From Streptomyces sp. B21-083 (GTDB lineage Bacteria; Actinomycetota; Actinomycetes; Streptomycetales; Streptomycetaceae): DNA of 64,000 bases. Under the pieces are notes generated by a model. The model saw nothing but the letters and a program-made list of their open reading frames with translations, was not told where the DNA came from and ran no database searches. Below are positions 4,885 to 20,914 of this stretch, piece after piece. The stretch lies in assembly GCF_036898825.1 (NCBI RefSeq), contig NZ_JARUND010000001.1:5146001-5210000 (forward strand), given 5' to 3'. Position numbers and translations under genes: made by a program. Position 1 is the first letter of the stretch; each line of letters starts with the position of its first letter.

Positions 4885-7800
4885 GTGGGGCGTCCCGAAA
4901 GACCGCTGGACCCCGACGCCGGCCCCGTGCAGCGGCTCGCGCACGAGCTGCGCGAGCTGCGCGGGGCGGCGGGCGGGCCGTCGTACCGGACGATGACCGA
5001 GGTGGCCGGCTGCTCGGTGAGCTCGCTGTCCGAGGCGGCGGCCGGGCGGAAACTGCCCTCGTTCACCGTCTTCCAGGGATACGTACGGGCTTGCGGCGGC
5101 GATCTCGGCGAGTGGGAACCCCGGTGGAAGGACGCCGACGCGCAAGCCGCCGGAACCGTGCGCGAGGAAGCGCCGGACGCGGCACCCCCGTACCGCGGAC
5201 TGGCCCGCTTCGAACCCGGCGACCACGCCCTCTTCTTCGGCCGGGACCGGCTCGTCGAGGAGGCGCGGGAACTGGTGTGCACCCACCGGTTCGCCGTCCT
5301 GTTCGGGGCGTCCGGGAGCGGGAAGTCGTCGCTGCTGAGGGCCGGACTGATACCCCACCTGCGCGCCGAGATCGCGCGCGCCGGGGCCCCGGCCGCGCTC
5401 CGGGTGCTGACCCCCGGGGCCGCGCCGGCACGGACGTACGGCCATCTGCTGACCCCGAAGGACGGCGAGCCGGAGAGCTGGGTCGTGGTGGACCAGTTCG
5501 AAGAGGTCTTCACCCTCTGCCGCGACTCACGGGAGCGCTCCCACTTCATCGACCTGCTGCTCGCCGCCCGGAACCCGGACAGCCGGCTGCGGGTGCTCAT
5601 CGCCGTACGCGCCGACTTCTACGCCCGCTGCGCCGAGCACCGGGAACTCGCCGACGCCCTGCGCGGCGCGGGGCTGCCGGTCGGCCCGATGAGCGCGGAG
5701 GAGCTGCGCGAGGCGGTCGTCGGACCGGCCCAGGCCGCCGGACTGCTGGTGGAACGGGACCTGACCGCGCGGATCGTCGACGAGGTCCAGGACCAGCCGG
5801 GCGCGCTGCCCATGCTGTCCCACGCCCTCCTGGAGACCTGGCGCCGCCGCCGCAGCCGCATGCTCACCCTGACGGGGTACGAGGCGGTCGGCGGCGTCCT
5901 CGGCGCCATCGCCGCGACCGCCGAGGACGTGTACGGCAGGCTGTCCGAGGCCGAGGCACGCACCGCCCGCCAGTTGCTGCTGCGCCTGATCGAGCCCGGC
6001 CAGGGCAACGCCGACACCCGGCGCCCCCTGGTCCGCGCCGAACTCGACGACTGGAACGGCGACGACGTGCCCGTGGTGGTGGACAGGCTGGCCCGCGCCC
6101 GCCTTGTCACCGTCGACGAGGACGGCGTCCAGCTCGCCCACGAGGCGCTCATCACCTGCTGGCCGAGGCTGCGCGGCTGGATCGAGGAGGACCGGGAGCG
6201 GCTGCGCCACCACCGGCGCCTCACCGAGGCCGCCCGCGCCTGGCTGGAGCACGACCGCGACCCCGGCGCCCTCTACCGGGGCAGCCGCCTGGTCCGTGCC
6301 GAGGAACTGTTCGCCGACGACCGCAGCGCGCTGACGGCACCGGAGTGCGCGTTCCTCACGGCCGCCCTGGCAGCCCGCGAGTCGGAACGCCGGGCCGTGA
6401 CCCGGACCGCCCGCCGCTCCCGCACCCTCGTCGGCGCGCTGTCCGCCGTACTGGCGGTGGCGCTCCTGATCGGCCTCGCCGCCTGGCAGCAGGCCGAGGA
6501 CAGCCAGAAGCGGCGCACCGACGACGCGGCCCGCCGGGTCGCCGAGGTCGCCGACGGCCTCCGCACGACCGACCCGCGCACCGCGATGCTGCTGGGCGTC
6601 GCCGCCTGGCGCATCTCGCCGCTGCCCGAGGCCCGGCGCGCCCTCCTGGGCTCTCTCACCCAGCCCGAAAGGGGCACCTTCACCGACCCCGCGACAGCCG
6701 CCGACCCCGTACGACTCCTTCTCGACTCCGGCCGTACGCTGCTCAGTTCGGACGGCGGCAACTGGCGGACCTGGGACCTGGCGACCGGGCGGCACACCGC
6801 CTCGGGCCGCCTCCCGGACGGAGGCGCGGACGCCCTCGTCACCGCCGGGCCGGGCGCCAGGGTGCTCGCCGTCGCCGCGAAGGACGGCGTCCGGCTGTGG
6901 GACGCGACTTCTCGGCACTGGACCGGCGGCTCCCCCCGACTCGCGGCGAACTGGGCGAACGTCCACTTCAGCCCCGACGGCGCCACCTTCCTCGTCAGCA
7001 CCACCGAGGGCCGGGTCCAGCTGCGGTCGGTCGCGGACGGCCGCCTCCTCTACGCGACGCACGGCTCGGCCGACCTGTCCGACGTGGCGTCGGGGCCGGA
7101 CGGCCGACTGGTGGCCCTCTGCCCGGACGGCCGGGCACCGCAGCTGTGGGACCTCCGCGACCGGCGTCTCGTGCACGGCTCATGGGAGCGGTCTCGGAAA
7201 CTCTGCGACGAGAACTCGACGTTGGTGTTCGGAGGGGGCGGCGGCGCGGGCGGGGGCGGCGGCCGGTTCGCGGTTCTCTCGTACACAGGCCGGCGCCCCG
7301 AGGGCAACGGATCCACCGGGACGAGCGGGAACACCGGCCTGCGTGTCTGGGACGCGGACACCGGGCGCCAGGTCGCCGGCATCCGCTCGCTGGGCGTGGA
7401 CTCCGCCGCGTTCAGCCCGGACGGGACGCTGCTGGCGACGGCAGACGACACCGAGGTCCGGGTCTGGCGTCTCGACGGCCGTGCGACGACCCCCGTCTTC
7501 CGGCACGCCCTGAACAACCAGAGCCTCTCGGCCGGCCTCAGCTGGGTGCCCGGCCGCCGTCCGGTGCTGCGCTACCTGGAGGAGCGCACCGTCCACACCC
7601 TCGACCTCGGCCCGGCGGCCACCTCTGCCTGGCGCGCACACCCGGCGGACGACGTCCTGCTCAGCCCGGACGGTCACACGCTGGCCACCGCCGAACGCAC
7701 CACCGGCGCCAACTACCGCTTCCGGCTCCTCGACACCCGCGACGGCCACGACCTGGGCACCCTGCCGTCCCCGCCCGCGCCCGTCTCCGACGACCCCTCC

Positions 7801-8703
7801 ATGCCGGTGGACCCGCCGAGCACGCTCGCCGTGACGTCCTTCAGCCCCGACGGCACGACGTTCGCGTACGGGGTCTCCGCGCCCGGCGTCGAGACGGCGC
7901 CGCAGCCCATCACGGTCTGGGACGTCGGACGCCACCGTGCCCTCACCACCCTGTCCCTGCCGAACGCCGGCTCGGTCGATGGGGCCGTGGAACTGCGTCT
8001 GGGCCCGGCCGGACACCGCCTCTACGTCACCCGTGTATCGGACGTCGGCATACTCGACGAGGAGGTCTGGGACGTCACCCGGCATCGCCGGACCGGCAGG
8101 CTCCATGGGCTGGAGGGCATGCCCCTGGCCATCCGCCCGGACGGGGGCCTCCTCGTCGGCGACAACCGCGCCGTCCGCCTGCCCGCCGGCAAGGTCACCA
8201 GGCCCAGCCTCGTCCAGGGCGCCCGGACCGGCGCCCTGGCCTTCTCCTCGGACGGCTCCCTGCTGGCGGCGGGCGACTGGTCCGGCCGCGTCGCCCTGTG
8301 GGACGGCGACCTCCGGCGCAGCACGGGCGTCATGCGCAGCGTCTTCCCGACCGCCCTCGAAGGGGGCCCGGAGGGAGTCGGCGCGCTGGCTGTCAGCCCC
8401 GACCGCCGCACCTTGGCGGTCGCCGGCGACCAGGGCACTCTCCAGCTGTGGGACATCCCGACCGGCCAGCCCCTGGGCGGCACGCTGACCACCCCCGGCG
8501 ACGCGATCACGACCCTGGCCTTCGCTCCCGACAGCACGACGCTGTACGCGGGGAGCGCCTACGTCCCCCTCCAGCGCTACTCGATAGACCCGGCGGGCGC
8601 GGTACGGCAGGTATGCGACCGAGCGGGCGGCCACGGCCTGACACGGGAACAGTGGCGGACGTACATCCCGGACGCGGGGTTCAAGGGGGTGTGCGGGACC
8701 TAG
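4885..8703 (+). CDS. HTH-like / nSTAND1 NTPase / TM / WD40-repeat protein
   Basis: 1272 aa. The GTG at 4885 is preceded by a weak GGTGGT site and no better in-frame start exists. Residues ~10-80 resemble the XRE-like N-terminal domain common in streptomycete proteins (YRTMTEVAGCSVSSLSEAAAG). The nSTAND1 NTPase follows, with P-loop GASGSGKSS at 141-149 and Walker B with D203 (VVVDQFEE). A basic/helical linker leads to one membrane segment near 515-535, then a long WD40 propeller (about residues 590-1265, blades ending in VWD or LWD). It is a close paralogue of the protein at 1-3471, with the same order and many identical stretches. It carries an extra low-complexity glycine run (~residues 780-795) and a loop insertion in one blade. 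Families of this build are proposed regulators of stress or conflict responses; the signal sensed here is not known. Confidence 0.88.
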   Translation: MGRPERPLDPDAGPVQRLAHELRELRGAAGGPSYRTMTEVAGCSVSSLSEAAAGRKLPSFTVFQGYVRACGGDLGEWEPRWKDADAQAAGTVREEAPDAAPPYRGLARFEPGDHALFFGRDRLVEEARELVCTHRFAVLFGASGSGKSSLLRAGLIPHLRAEIARAGAPAALRVLTPGAAPARTYGHLLTPKDGEPESWVVVDQFEEVFTLCRDSRERSHFIDLLLAARNPDSRLRVLIAVRADFYARCAEHRELADALRGAGLPVGPMSAEELREAVVGPAQAAGLLVERDLTARIVDEVQDQPGALPMLSHALLETWRRRRSRMLTLTGYEAVGGVLGAIAATAEDVYGRLSEAEARTARQLLLRLIEPGQGNADTRRPLVRAELDDWNGDDVPVVVDRLARARLVTVDEDGVQLAHEALITCWPRLRGWIEEDRERLRHHRRLTEAARAWLEHDRDPGALYRGSRLVRAEELFADDRSALTAPECAFLTAALAARESERRAVTRTARRSRTLVGALSAVLAVALLIGLAAWQQAEDSQKRRTDDAARRVAEVADGLRTTDPRTAMLLGVAAWRISPLPEARRALLGSLTQPERGTFTDPATAADPVRLLLDSGRTLLSSDGGNWRTWDLATGRHTASGRLPDGGADALVTAGPGARVLAVAAKDGVRLWDATSRHWTGGSPRLAANWANVHFSPDGATFLVSTTEGRVQLRSVADGRLLYATHGSADLSDVASGPDGRLVALCPDGRAPQLWDLRDRRLVHGSWERSRKLCDENSTLVFGGGGGAGGGGGRFAVLSYTGRRPEGNGSTGTSGNTGLRVWDADTGRQVAGIRSLGVDSAAFSPDGTLLATADDTEVRVWRLDGRATTPVFRHALNNQSLSAGLSWVPGRRPVLRYLEERTVHTLDLGPAATSAWRAHPADDVLLSPDGHTLATAERTTGANYRFRLLDTRDGHDLGTLPSPPAPVSDDPSMPVDPPSTLAVTSFSPDGTTFAYGVSAPGVETAPQPITVWDVGRHRALTTLSLPNAGSVDGAVELRLGPAGHRLYVTRVSDVGILDEEVWDVTRHRRTGRLHGLEGMPLAIRPDGGLLVGDNRAVRLPAGKVTRPSLVQGARTGALAFSSDGSLLAAGDWSGRVALWDGDLRRSTGVMRSVFPTALEGGPEGVGALAVSPDRRTLAVAGDQGTLQLWDIPTGQPLGGTLTTPGDAITTLAFAPDSTTLYAGSAYVPLQRYSIDPAGAVRQVCDRAGGHGLTREQWRTYIPDAGFKGVCGT

Positions 8704-17393: not shown

Positions 17394-17543
17394 CTACCCG
17401 GGTCGGCTCAGCGCCCACTGCGCTTCGTGCACGGGCCCCGTCCGATGTGGCTCCGCCGCACGGGCCGGGCCCGCGTTCGCGGCGAGGATGAGTGTGGCGG
17501 CGGCGACGATCGCCGCGCAGATCGCTCTGGCGTGTGAGAGCAC
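17394..17543 (-). CDS. Small secreted peptide gene divergent from XRE-TPR regulator
   Basis: 49 codons. GTG start at 17543 with GAGG 5 nt upstream. The product is almost entirely a signal peptide (SHARAICAAIVAAATLILA...GPARA) followed by a mature tail of about 20 aa, AEPHRTGPVHEAQWALSRPG. The frame also extends upstream to 17585 without a better start. No cysteine and no lipobox. It is divergent from the XRE-TPR gene at 17653 with 109 bp between starts. In Firmicutes, RRNPP regulators (XRE + TPR) sense secreted peptides encoded next door. The arrangement here is the same, but the pairing is inferred and no homologue is known to me. Confidence 0.6.
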   Translation of the reverse strand: MLSHARAICAAIVAAATLILAANAGPARAAEPHRTGPVHEAQWALSRPG

Positions 17544-17585
17544 GGCAACCTCGCAACCTCGCGATGACAGCGACGTATCAAGCAC

Positions 17586-17616
17586 GCTTAACCCGTGGCT
17601 TAACGTAGAGCTTGAC
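17586..17616. promoter_or_regulatory. Three 7-bp direct repeats with 12-bp period
   Basis: GCTTAAC (17586-17592), GCTTAAC (17598-17604) and GCTTGAC (17610-17616) are exactly 12 bp apart, between the secreted-peptide gene and the XRE-TPR gene. The spacing is slightly over one helical turn, so a multimeric regulator could bind one face. TTGACG in the third copy might also be a -35 box for the plus strand. A second short repeat, GCAACCTC twice, lies at about 17545-17562. Confidence 0.45.
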
Positions 17617-17652
17617 GGTCCTCAACGGCAAGTGGGCGCAGGGGAGTTGGCG

Positions 17653-18996
17653 ATGGTGGAGCGCGACGACCCGGAAGTCATCGGGCGCAGGGTGCAGCGG
17701 CTGCGTATCGAGCAGGGGCAGACACAGAGGCAGTTGGCGGAGCCCGCCTACACACCCGCCTACATCTCCACCCTGGAAGCCGGACGCGTGCGGGCCTCCG
17801 ACGAGGCGCTGCGGCACATCGCCGAGCGGCTGGGGGTGGCGTACGAGGAGATCGTGACCGGGCGTCCGGCCCATCTGGCCACGGACCTCCGGCTGCGACT
17901 CACCGACGCCCAGCGCACCCTCGCCACCGGCGAGACCGAGGCGGCGGCCAGGCAGTACCGGGAGCTGAAGGAGGAGGCCGCGCGGCTCGGGCTCCTCGCG
18001 GAGGAGGCCGCCGCGCTGCTCGGGCTCGGCGAGTGCGGAGTGGAGACCGGGGATCTCGGCGCCGCCCAGGAGTACTTCGAGCAGGCCGAACGGTGTCTGG
18101 CCGACGAGCCCCTCACCGGACGGGTTCCCGCCTTGCGCGGGCGGGCCGTCGCGCACTATCTCGCCGGTGAACTCCGTTACTCCGTATACCTTCTGGAGTC
18201 GACGATCGACGAGCTGAACCGCGGCGGGCTGCACGACCCGGACGCGCTTCTCCCCCTCTACGCCAGCTCCATCGCCCCCTACATGGACATGGGCGCCCAC
18301 GCGCGCGCGGCCCAGGCCGCCGAACTGGCCCTCGCGCTCGCGCCGCAGGTGCGCGATCCGGCGCTCATCGCCCGGATGCACCGGCAGGTGGCCCGGACGA
18401 TGCTCGCCGAGGGACGGTACGCGGAGGCCGACGCCTCGCTGGCGAAGGCCGCCGAGCTGTACCGGCAGCTGCAGATCCGCACCGAGCTGGCCAACTGCCA
18501 CTGGATGCGCGGGTATCTGTACGCCCAGCAGAACGAACTCGCCCGCGCAGAAGCCGAGTTGAGGGAGGCGCACGCCATGCTGTCCGCCAAGCGCGCAGCC
18601 CTCTACAGCAGCCAGGTCACGGTCGAGCTGGCCGACGTACTGCACCGGCGCGGCAAGTCCGACGAGGCGGCGGCGCTGCTGCACGACGTACTCGGGGACC
18701 TGTCGTCGGAGCGCGGCGCCGTGCACTCGGCCGCCGCCCACCGGCTGCTCGGCATCATCGCGGAGGACGCCCGCGACACGGACCGGGCGGAGGAGCACTA
18801 CGTCCGCGCCCTCAGTGTCCTGGAGCGCGCGGGCGCCGCCGGAGACCTCGCCGACCTGTGCCGGCTGCTCGGCGATCTGCTGCGCCGGACCGGCCGGGTG
18901 GAGGCCGCGCTCGACGCGTACCGCACGGGGCTGGGGCATCGTACGGCCCCCGGCACCACGACGCTCGGCCCGGCGCCCGCGCAGCCCCCTCTTTGA
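17653..18996 (+). CDS. XRE-family regulator with TPR array (RRNPP-like architecture)
   Basis: 447 aa. ATG 17653 with GGGGAG 6 nt upstream; the frame is open further upstream (to 17488) but has no better start. Residues ~5-65 form an XRE helix-turn-helix (IGRRVQRLRIEQGQTQRQLAEPAYTPAYISTLEAGRVRAS). From ~85 to the end runs an alpha-helical tetratricopeptide array (AARQYRELKEEAARLGLLAEEAAALLGLG; AQEYFEQAERCL; AEEHYVRALSVLERAG, and others). This is the architecture of peptide-binding regulators (NprR, PlcR, Rap) and also of many uncharacterised actinomycete proteins. The divergent 49-codon secreted peptide gene is the most likely partner. The gene downstream starts 110 bp away. Confidence 0.88.
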   Translation: MVERDDPEVIGRRVQRLRIEQGQTQRQLAEPAYTPAYISTLEAGRVRASDEALRHIAERLGVAYEEIVTGRPAHLATDLRLRLTDAQRTLATGETEAAARQYRELKEEAARLGLLAEEAAALLGLGECGVETGDLGAAQEYFEQAERCLADEPLTGRVPALRGRAVAHYLAGELRYSVYLLESTIDELNRGGLHDPDALLPLYASSIAPYMDMGAHARAAQAAELALALAPQVRDPALIARMHRQVARTMLAEGRYAEADASLAKAAELYRQLQIRTELANCHWMRGYLYAQQNELARAEAELREAHAMLSAKRAALYSSQVTVELADVLHRRGKSDEAAALLHDVLGDLSSERGAVHSAAAHRLLGIIAEDARDTDRAEEHYVRALSVLERAGAAGDLADLCRLLGDLLRRTGRVEAALDAYRTGLGHRTAPGTTTLGPAPAQPPL

Positions 18997-19106: not shown

Positions 19107-20162
19107 GTGAACGGCGAGTACGGCGAGCAGGGCGGGGGGTACGGCCGGCCCGGCGGCGGGTGGAGCGTTGCCGACGGGCTGCGGTTCGCCGTCCGCGCGT
19201 TCGTGTACGCCGTCGTCGGCGGCGCCGCGCTGATCGCCATCGCGACCGTCGCCTCCGTACTCGGGCCGACCCTCGCCCTCGACCTCTACACGCCGGCCGT
19301 GGCCGCCTGGTGGACGGTGTTCACGGCGGTCGTGGTGCAGGGGGTGCCCTTCCTGCTGCTGGGCACGGTGGTGTCGGCGGCGATCGGGGCCTTCGTACCG
19401 GAACGGGTGTTCACCCGGCTGCTGCCGCGCAACCCGGCGCTCGCCGTGCCGATCGCGGGCGCGGCCGGGGTCGTCCTGCCCGGGTGCGAGTGCGCGTCCG
19501 TGCCGGTGGCGGGGAGCCTGATGCGGCGCGGGGTGGCCCCGGCCGCCGCGCTCGCGTTCCTGCTCTCCGCGCCGGCGATCAACCCCGTGGTGCTGGTCGC
19601 GACCTCGATCGCCTTTCCCGGGCAACCGAGGATGGTGCTCGGGCGGCTGGTGGCCTCCCTGGTCACGGCGGTAATCATGGGCTGGCTGTGGGCGCGGTTC
19701 GGGCGGGACGAGTGGCTTCGCAAGCCCCTGCCGGTGGGCGGGTCGTCGGCCTCCGAGCCCTCCGGCTGGCGCGGGTTCTCGGCCGGGCTCCAGCACGACT
19801 TCCTGCATGCGGGCGGCTTCCTGGTACTGGGCGCGGGGGCGGCGGCGACCTTCAACATCGTCGTCCCGAGGTCCGTGCTCGACGTGTTCACCGGCTCGGC
19901 TTGGCTCGCCGTGCTGCTGCTGGCCGTACTGGCGGTCGTCCTGTGCGTGTGCAGCGAGGCCGACGCCTTCGTGGCGGCCTCCCTCAGCGGCTTCTCCCCG
20001 ACGGCCCGGCTCGCCTTCATGGTGGTCGGCCCGATGGTCGACCTGAAGCTGATCGCCCTCCAGGCGGGCACCTTCGGCCGCGCGTTCGCCGTCCGGTTCT
20101 CGTCGGTGACGTGGGTGGTCGCGGTGAGCAGCAGTGTCGTCGTCGGGTGGTGGTTGTTGTGA
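19107..20162 (+). CDS. ArsP/YraQ-type permease (DUF318), likely metal-related
   Basis: 351 aa from GTG 19107. About eight to ten membrane segments. Family hallmarks are the cysteine motif GVVLPGCECASVPVAGSLMRRG in the first half and its echo VVLCVCSEADAFVAASLSGF in the second, plus LLSAPAINPVVL. This is the PF03773 permease family, the YcgR-type partner of TIGR03943 proteins. In Bacillus and many actinomycetes the pair is Zur-regulated and linked to zinc homeostasis. It overlaps the next gene by 4 nt (GTGA), the classical arrangement of the pair. Direction and substrate of transport are not established; metal is inferred from the family and the His-rich partner. Confidence 0.88.
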   Translation: MNGEYGEQGGGYGRPGGGWSVADGLRFAVRAFVYAVVGGAALIAIATVASVLGPTLALDLYTPAVAAWWTVFTAVVVQGVPFLLLGTVVSAAIGAFVPERVFTRLLPRNPALAVPIAGAAGVVLPGCECASVPVAGSLMRRGVAPAAALAFLLSAPAINPVVLVATSIAFPGQPRMVLGRLVASLVTAVIMGWLWARFGRDEWLRKPLPVGGSSASEPSGWRGFSAGLQHDFLHAGGFLVLGAGAAATFNIVVPRSVLDVFTGSAWLAVLLLAVLAVVLCVCSEADAFVAASLSGFSPTARLAFMVVGPMVDLKLIALQAGTFGRAFAVRFSSVTWVVAVSSSVVVGWWLL

Positions 20163-20914
20163 GGCGGTACGGGGGTGCCGTGCTGTTGCTGCTGACGGGC
20201 GGCGCGGTGCTGCGGATCTCGCTGTTCAGCGAGCTGTATCTGCGATACGTGCAGGAGGGGCTGCGGCCGTACCTGGTGGTGTCCGGAGTGGTACTGGTGC
20301 TGCTGGGGGTGGTGGCCGCCGTGGCACGGGGGCGGGGTGAGACGGAGGACCCCGAGGACGACGAGCACGACGAGCGCGACGGTCATGGTGACGGTGACGG
20401 TCATGGTCACCGGCATGGGCACGGCCCCCGAGTCGCCTGGCTGCTCACGCTTCCCGCCCTCGCGCTGCTCCTCTTCCCGCCGCCCGCCCTGGGCTCGTAC
20501 AGCGCCGACCGCGAGGCGGCTCAGCGGGCCGCGCAGGGCGTGGGTACGTTCCCCGCGCTGCCCGCCGGGAATCCGCTGGAGCTGACGGTCGGTGAGTTCG
20601 GCTCGCGCGCGATCTTCGACAGCGGTCGGTCACTGAAGGGCCGTACCGTCCGGCTGACCGGCTTCGTCACCCACGGGGACGACGGCGCCTGGTACGTCAC
20701 CCGCCTCCTCGTCTCCTGCTGCGCGGCCGACGCCACGACGGGCAAGGTCGAGATACGCGACGCCGACGCCCCGGTCACGGACACCTGGGTCACGGTCACC
20801 GGAACCTGGGTGCCCAAGGGGAAGCTGGGCTCGGACGCGGCCTGGCCACCGGTGCTGGACGCGGGGTCCGTACGGACGGTCGCGGAGCCGTCGAACCCGT
20901 ACGAGAAGCGCTGA
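20159..20914 (+). CDS. TIGR03943/DUF1980 permease-partner protein with His-rich linker
   Basis: 251 aa, GTG 20159 coupled to the permease stop. Two N-terminal membrane segments (YGGAVLLLLTGGAVLRISLF; YLVVSGVVLVLLGVVAAV) are followed by a charged linker in which GHGDGDGHGHRHGHG holds six histidines. A third hydrophobic segment follows, then an extracytoplasmic domain with the family motif LVSCCAADATTG and VTGTWV. The His-rich loop and the CC pair are plausible metal ligands. This is the YcgQ-like partner of the upstream permease; the two form an operon. A G3E GTPase or a Zur gene, often nearby in other genomes, is not seen here. Confidence 0.88.
   Translation: MRRYGGAVLLLLTGGAVLRISLFSELYLRYVQEGLRPYLVVSGVVLVLLGVVAAVARGRGETEDPEDDEHDERDGHGDGDGHGHRHGHGPRVAWLLTLPALALLLFPPPALGSYSADREAAQRAAQGVGTFPALPAGNPLELTVGEFGSRAIFDSGRSLKGRTVRLTGFVTHGDDGAWYVTRLLVSCCAADATTGKVEIRDADAPVTDTWVTVTGTWVPKGKLGSDAAWPPVLDAGSVRTVAEPSNPYEKR

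Follow-up and report, generated by a model that had tools for sequence, protein, structure and literature searches.

Does this stretch of a Streptomyces genome encode a peptide together with the receptor that senses it? The stretch that we analyzed (the window) comprises 64,000 nucleotides of the 10.5-Mb genome of Streptomyces sp. B21-083. In the available part of one source (PMC10075063), intracellular peptide signaling through TPR receptors is described as a Bacillota system and the signals of Actinomycetota as typically small molecules. The original prediction, made from the letters of the window, was that a short secreted peptide is encoded opposite an XRE-TPR regulator that would respond to it.

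We found that the genes are laid out as predicted. A 49-aa ORF, part of which resembles an export signal, and an XRE-TPR regulator are encoded divergently, and the coordinates, the domains, and the 109-bp spacer (about 110 nt between the starts) all agree with the claim (Table 1). The small ORF also has the ribosome site of its own that had been claimed, a GAGG ahead of the GTG start, and a TGCGAGGT-type Shine-Dalgarno sequence precedes the start in most of its orthologues. The segment around this site (17545-17560) is a perfect 8-bp tandem duplication (GCAACCTC twice). By eye, the small ORF shows the n/h/c layout of a Sec export signal, and no Pfam family matched the peptide. For the regulator, Pfam returned HTH_3 at 23.2 bits (cut-off, 23), TPR_12 at an E value of 1.7e-12, and other TPR families over the cut-off. 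A Uma2-family protein is the upstream neighbor of the pair, and an ArsP_1 permease and a TIGR03943 protein are its downstream neighbors. A scan for promoter and terminator consensus sequences found 0 and 0, and is uninformative for a genome as GC rich as this one. Elsewhere in the window, 4885-8703 is a large gene whose product starts with VGRPERPLDPDAGPVQRLAHELRELRGAAGG; a relative with a similar start adjoins the small ORF in locus L199.

Table 1. Positions of the small ORF, the regulator, their parts, and the downstream neighbors in the window
Feature	Position	Strand	Basis or remark
Small ORF, 49 aa, GTG start	17394..17543	-	Signal-peptide-like segment plus variable tail; stop included
Small-ORF Shine-Dalgarno GAGGT (GAGG at 17552-17549)	17548..17552	-	Conserved as TGCGAGGT
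Conserved core, small-ORF residues 9-29, CAAIVAAATLILAANAGPARA	17457..17519	-	Purifying selection, alignment A1
Variable tail of small ORF, AEPHRTGPVHEAQWALSRPG	17397..17456	-	pN/pS 0.68; absent in 14/79 named loci
Palindromic operator TCAAGCACGCTTAA, consensus TTAAGCnnGCTTAA	17578..17591		Spacer conservation
Third half-site CTTAACGTAGAG, consensus TTTAACcTAGGG	17599..17610	+	69/80 spacers vs 0.5 expected
XRE-TPR regulator, 447 aa, candidate peptide receptor	17653..18996	+	Pfam HTH_3, TPR_12, TPR_2, TPR_8
HTH (XRE) domain, regulator residues ~8-72	17674..17868	+	Pfam HTH_3 15-66, HTH_19 11-70; PlcR match
TPR region, regulator residues ~86-428, candidate peptide-binding surface	17908..18936	+	Pfam
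ArsP_1 permease	19107..20162	+	Pfam; frequent neighbor of pair
TIGR03943 family protein (DUF1980 C-terminal domain)	20162..20914	+	Usually adjoins permease

A regulator match with an E value of <=1e-60 occurs in 253 of 392 genomes of the genus. We compared the best 80 of 426 stretches that encode a relative (the named loci), of which 78 are titled Streptomyces and two "Actinobacteria bacterium." The original prediction had named the lack of a conserved short ORF beside orthologous regulators as its refuting condition; we found the small ORF, divergent from the regulator, in 79 of these best 80 loci. Its start, as chosen by script, lies 91 to 221 nt from the regulator in 73 of the 79, and the ORF lies 0.6 to 1.9 kb away in six (L067-L070, L072, and L073). 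The sole named locus with the regulator and without the small ORF is L128, from S. stelliscabiei. There, the first core profile scored 31.6 bits on a stretch that has no hydrophobic segment and profile A1 found no match, and we counted the small ORF as absent.

We also searched whole genomes with profile A1, an alignment of 38 small ORFs, which matches the window's small ORF in its own genome with an E value of 4.4e-15. A match (E <= 2.1e-5) was found in 78 of 199 genomes, among them every one of the 72 whose regulator matched at E <= 1e-200; the remaining six are G013, G022, G086, G148, G163, and G200. Both coordinates are listed for 70 of the 72, and in all 70 the genes are adjacent and divergent, 68 of them within 300 nt. 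Of a second sample (119 genomes of the order, some of them shared with the first), all 48 with a regulator match at E <= 8.1e-232 have the small ORF. Small-ORF matches at E <= 1e-4 were confined to one of the five genera in this sample. Beyond the 48, they were found in G013 (no regulator match), G230 (a regulator without the HTH), and G432, where the match (E = 9.5e-5) lies in a long open frame and is probably due to chance. That the small ORF truly encodes a protein and is functionally linked to the regulator is strongly supported. TTA codons, which place genes under bldA control, are found in none of the 79 small ORFs, nor in the window's regulator.

The ArsP permease lies within the fetched stretch in only 41 of the 80 named loci (some stretches end at contig ends). 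We therefore rejected the permease/TIGR03943 pair as an obligate partner, and the permease probably lies outside the core module. In L074, L077, L078, L105, L115, and L117, the cassette is inverted relative to the permease/TIGR03943 pair, with the permease on the side and strand of the small ORF.

What is conserved as protein is a hydrophobic signal segment that ends in AANxGPxRA. The consensus is approximately RYxRGxxAAVxAVAALxxAANAGPARA, followed by a variable tail, and AANAGPARA and LILAANAGPARA are examples of core fragments. Among 97 distinct cores, entropies at the three codon positions are 0.74, 0.51, and 1.21, the third position being the most variable, and residue entropy is lowest in the small ORF's own reading frame among the six frames. 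In 151 close pairs, pN/pS is 0.24 for the core versus 0.68 for the tail, the tail value resting on a forced alignment. L013 and L157, which have the small ORF, were left out of the codon-entropy and pN/pS analyses because a wrong start had been picked in a long open frame, and L087 was without an anchor in the codon-entropy analysis. The core profile scored <=6.7 bits on 47 other secreted or membrane N termini, versus about 22 to 68 bits within the family; this test of specificity is partly circular because the profile was built from family members, and one chance score reached 31.6 bits (L128).

The tail behaves differently from what had been predicted. The signal had been placed in a tail of about 20 residues, and a conserved C terminus had been expected beside orthologous regulators. 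We found that the C-terminal tail (AEPHRTGPVHEAQWALSRPG in the window) is the variable part of the peptide. We compared eight loci whose regulators share 94 to 96% identity with that of the window: the tail is similar to the window's only in L063, and in the other seven it differs in sequence and length. In 14 of the 79 loci, the tail is absent and the ORF stops straight after the core (…TAANAVRPN* and …SAANAVPH*). On a FastTree tree of 124 regulators, these short forms are found in two distinct clades, and two changes are required to account for the label; by this reconstruction, the tail is lost twice independently while the core is kept.

A tail that changes this quickly could still be a pheromone, freed by signal peptidase and diverging fast by pherotype. 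Tails do differ between close strains, as in fast-evolving pherotypes, and 62 of the 65 long forms (and none of the 14 short forms) have an A-x-A no more than 6 residues away from the conserved Pro. But most tails, L063 being the exception, differ in both sequence and length even at 94 to 96% regulator identity, the tail pN/pS is high, and the tailless loci keep both core and regulator, so we consider a tail pheromone improbable. As a conserved signal, the tail was rejected on the basis of alignment, selection, and truncations. Since the tail is variable and has been lost and the core is conserved, the model of a mature tail finds little support, and the conserved information lies in the signal segment.

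The spacer between the two genes had been predicted to hold three repeats 12 bp apart. This trio is real in the window (CTTAAC, CTTAAC, and CTTGAC at 17587, 17599, and 17611), but it occurs in its exact form in only 2 of 81 spacers; two half-site copies 12 bp apart are found in 62 of 81. By eye, the spacer consensus is gtaTTAAGCATGCTTAATccGCcGTTTAACcTAGGGG. Of 80 spacers (from the window and 79 loci), 62 contain the palindrome TTAAGCnnGCTTAA with no more than one mismatch, and shuffled spacers gave none at 0 or 1 mismatch. The third half-site usually lies 22 nt from the palindrome start and, judging from its position, probably overlaps the regulator promoter. At L128, the two remaining half-sites read TCGA by eye, not TTAA.

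The displaced loci bear on what the operator serves. In all four that were printed (L067, L069, L072, and L073), it lies beside the small ORF, far from the regulator. Because the operator stays with the displaced small ORF, it serves the small-ORF promoter. It is well supported by these patterns in the DNA that the regulator would bind TTAAGCnnGCTTAA and the third half-site and would control the small ORF and probably itself. In L067, L068, L070, and L073, an insertion separates the operator and small ORF from the regulator. The DNA just upstream of the regulator in these four loci translates by eye to a DUF397-like protein, and a second, regulator-proximal site, GGCATGATTA, remains by the regulator. 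Sites of this kind (GGCATGCTTA or GGCATGATTA) occur near the regulator in 23 of 81 spacers.

We also looked for the operator elsewhere. The window's own genome has one site at <=1 mismatch (17578-17591) and the reversed control pattern gives three, so the single hit shows only the absence of a second site. In 41 genomes, we found 19 forward hits, 7 of them in small-ORF/regulator spacers, versus 81 hits for the reversed control. Because control hits outnumber forward hits, we did not read the scattered hits elsewhere as targets, and a wider regulon defined by this operator was rejected.

How did the pair arise? The regulator tree places a single gain of the small ORF at the base of a 107-row clade (support, 99), with one later loss, at L128. 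For this tree, L036 was set as present (displaced), because little flanking sequence is stored for it and the small ORF is found in its close relatives L067-L073. The distant part of the family consists of 15 loci from 15 genomes, plus L156 and L246. By tblastn, 15 of 16 more distant regulators face a peptidase gene, encoding an S33-like hydrolase and/or an M64 peptidase. At L141-L155 (52 to 71% identity), the regulator is orthologous, the layout is divergent, and half-site arrays related to the operator precede the regulator by eye; unlike the window, these loci have an S33 aminopeptidase-like hydrolase and/or an M64 peptidase as the partner, and no small ORF was found. Pfam confirmed the peptidase partner at six of these loci, and the partner at L148 was typed by tblastn. 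With its related half-site array, the L141-L155 group is an uncharacterized peptidase control system in its own right. L156 (35% identity), a second homologue in the genome of L146 that is probably a paralogue, lacks both the peptidases and the small ORF. In the 80 named loci, tblastn found no S33 or M64 match within the fetched stretches, and M64 is absent from the window's own genome. Since peptidases face the sister regulators and are absent from the fetched stretches of these 80 loci, and M64 from the own genome, a peptidase gene seems to have been replaced by the peptide gene.

This apparent replacement raises the question of whether the small ORF is a nonfunctional remnant, such as the signal-peptide stump of a lost secreted peptidase, given that sister loci have a divergent secreted M64 peptidase gene at this position. 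The M64 N termini of nine loci scored -5.4 to 5.3 bits on the core profile, versus <=6.7 bits for the 47 controls (one control is the L147 M64 itself, and the L149 frame is doubtful). The M64 N termini match no better than controls, and descent of the small ORF from an M64 signal peptide is not supported. The core is also under purifying selection, and the ORF has been retained over the whole 107-row clade and after insertions. The remnant reading is thus largely refuted, and we give it almost no weight.

The main rival possibility is that the small ORF is a regulated target only, a small membrane or envelope effector, while the TPR region senses other things, for example, nutrient peptides, as the peptidase-linked relatives may do. 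With a peptidase as the divergent gene in 15 of 16 distant homologues, this position would be where a target is encoded and not where a ligand is. The operator remains with the displaced small ORF, and the core is hydrophobic, with the short forms ending straight after it. In the sister clade, regulators have no small ORF beside them, so a regulator of this kind does not as a rule require the peptide to function, and L128 keeps its regulator without one; both observations count against the peptide being a ligand. Short forms have no signal peptidase site and may simply be membrane peptides. Two other findings speak against a mere effector role: the AAN-x-x-P at the core end is kept beyond hydrophobicity (by the partly circular comparison with the 47 controls above), and in two loci whose regulator has lost the HTH, TPR and small ORF were both retained. 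We regard the effector reading as a real possibility, on balance doubtful.

Natural losses of the regulator also inform the function of the peptide. Homologues of the small ORF persist in G013, G022, G148, and G163, genomes in which there is no intact regulator. In G022, the small ORF is intact and the regulator is reduced to its last residues. G148 and G163 keep the small ORF and have their regulators only in pieces (assembly errors are possible). G013 has no regulator match; a homologue of the small ORF is there, but the preceding conserved segment (ribosome site and start) is changed. A small basic-hydrophobic peptide divergent from an XRE repressor-like gene might suggest a toxin-antitoxin-like pair, in which the XRE protein represses a small hydrophobic toxin. 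A toxin gene is not expected to be retained without its antitoxin, and the retention of the small ORF in G022, G148, and G163 speaks against a toxin, as does the fact that TPR regulators of the sister clade face peptidases. We rejected this candidate on the natural losses, above all G022, and consider it very improbable.

In two related species, G200 and G230 (L202 and L245), the small ORF faces a regulator that lacks the HTH, apparently through an in-frame deletion. The palindrome is gone from both loci (the best match has 5 mismatches, as in shuffled spacers), and the third half-site remains. Between L202 and L245, the TPR part has a pN/pS of 0.25, a sign of purifying selection, and the small ORF is kept. 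The loss of HTH and palindrome together with the retention of TPR and small ORF points to a link between TPR and peptide, not to DNA alone. This is the best hint, from two related genomes, that peptide and TPR may act together at the protein level. L246 (G472) has also lost the HTH; the script found no small ORF there, and the adjacent DNA resembles an S33 start by eye.

The regulator itself resembles RRNPP receptors in part. At 447 aa it falls within their size of 250 to 500 aa, and both domains of the predicted RRNPP-like XRE-plus-TPR architecture were found. The predicted similarity did not extend specifically to the TPR part: in a PDB profile search, the matches to PlcR (E = 1.3e-7; profile 5-61) and ComR cover only the HTH, and the TPR part matched kinesin light chains, designed TPRs, and MalT, among others, and no RRNPP receptor by sequence. 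N189 is the only Asn conserved in >=70% of 45 regulators, and this, like the lack of a TPR match to RRNPP receptors, weighs against a peptide ligand. The lineage-specific positions 169, 267, 281, 331, 360, 368, and 372 are all in the TPR region and track the clade. N281 follows the presence of the small ORF closely, but it changes only about four times on the tree, so we did not use it as evidence. The regulator ends (18937-18993) in a nearly invariant tail, RTAPGTTTLGPAPAQPPL, whose mean identity to the window's version is 99% across the small-ORF clade. Such a tail is unusual for a TPR protein and may be a pseudo-ligand or docking segment. A literature search for nsdA, a possible family name of the regulator, found no paper.

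Five RRNPP criteria can be computed, according to the available part of PMC10075063: a small propeptide, Sec export, a receptor of 250 to 500 aa, TPRs, and direct neighborhood. Judged by this partial source, all five are found here in outline, with Sec export assessed by eye, as in the RRNPP(A) systems of Bacillota (PlcR-PapR, NprR-NprX, Rgg-SHP, PrgX, and AimR). A TPR receptor in this size range with an N-terminal XRE HTH, itself a sequence match to PlcR, lies beside a gene for an export-signal-like propeptide of 49 aa (range, 10 to 100 aa). The pair differs from these systems in being divergent and in an actinomycete, whereas the accessible portion of PMC9765709 places the peptide gene of Bacillales RRNPP systems immediately 3' of the receptor gene and describes RRNPPA evolution within Bacilli. 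The TPR part also differs in having no specific sequence link to RRNPP receptors. The mature RRNPP(A) signal lies at or near a conserved propeptide C terminus, and here the propeptide C terminus is not conserved. Rap proteins are the RRNPP(A) exception without a DNA-binding HTH; the L202 and L245 regulators, which keep TPR and small ORF without the HTH, are similar to them, but their HTH loss arose locally by deletion.

The enterococcal pheromones cAD1, cCF10, and cPD1 derive from lipoprotein precursors, which are cleaved by signal peptidase II and the site-2 protease Eep. In these pheromones, the signal lies within the signal peptide (PMC10202637, available in part). As far as that source goes, they and the streptococcal SHPs share with our pair the placement of conserved information at the end of a signal or hydrophobic segment. 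The Streptomyces gene differs in being a dedicated small gene beside its regulator, with an A-x-A (type I) in place of a lipobox, and its processing is predicted. We consider the pair a good candidate for one that works like RRNPP or signal-peptide pheromone systems, not a proven member of either. It would most resemble the enterococcal pheromones and the SHPs, in which the hydrophobic segment carries the signal.

We favor a local module in which a fragment of the peptide's signal segment would be the ligand of the TPR receptor, and we hold this to be evenly balanced between right and wrong. The regulator would act through TTAAGCnnGCTTAA and the third half-site on the small ORF and probably on itself, and the small product would enter the Sec pathway. 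In long forms, signal peptidase I would cut after A-x-A and the variable tail would be discarded; in short forms, the stop codon would make a similar end. The fragment around LxxAANxGPxRA would then bind the TPR region, which is the least certain step. It might be detected inside the cell directly or only once exported and taken up again, and the module would thereby report its own expression or cell density. Of the peptide-signaling interpretation in the original prediction, the dedicated regulator/small-peptide pair with a conserved operator between the genes has held, and the tail as the signal has not.

A more specific account is that a single rewiring, at the base of a large clade, turned a peptidase-controlling peptide sensor into a signal-peptide-derived pheromone circuit. 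The opposite peptidase gene would have been replaced by a gene that encodes little more than a signal peptide, the end of which would be the ligand. The released tail would be a by-product, which would explain why it drifts and was dropped twice. This account is tentative, and we think it rather unlikely in full.

S. coelicolor peptide uptake systems are thought to import a peptide with a part in sporulation and secondary metabolism (PMC3924187, in the part available). A literature search, covering titles and the openings of abstracts, found no announcement of a Streptomyces gene pair of a peptide and a TPR receptor. The conserved pair with its defined operator is a directly testable candidate for Streptomyces peptide signaling, and the apparent exchange of a peptidase gene for a peptide gene points to a way in which such circuits come about. 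If this is true, a nutrient-peptide sensor would have turned into a receptor for cell-cell signaling, outside Bacillota.
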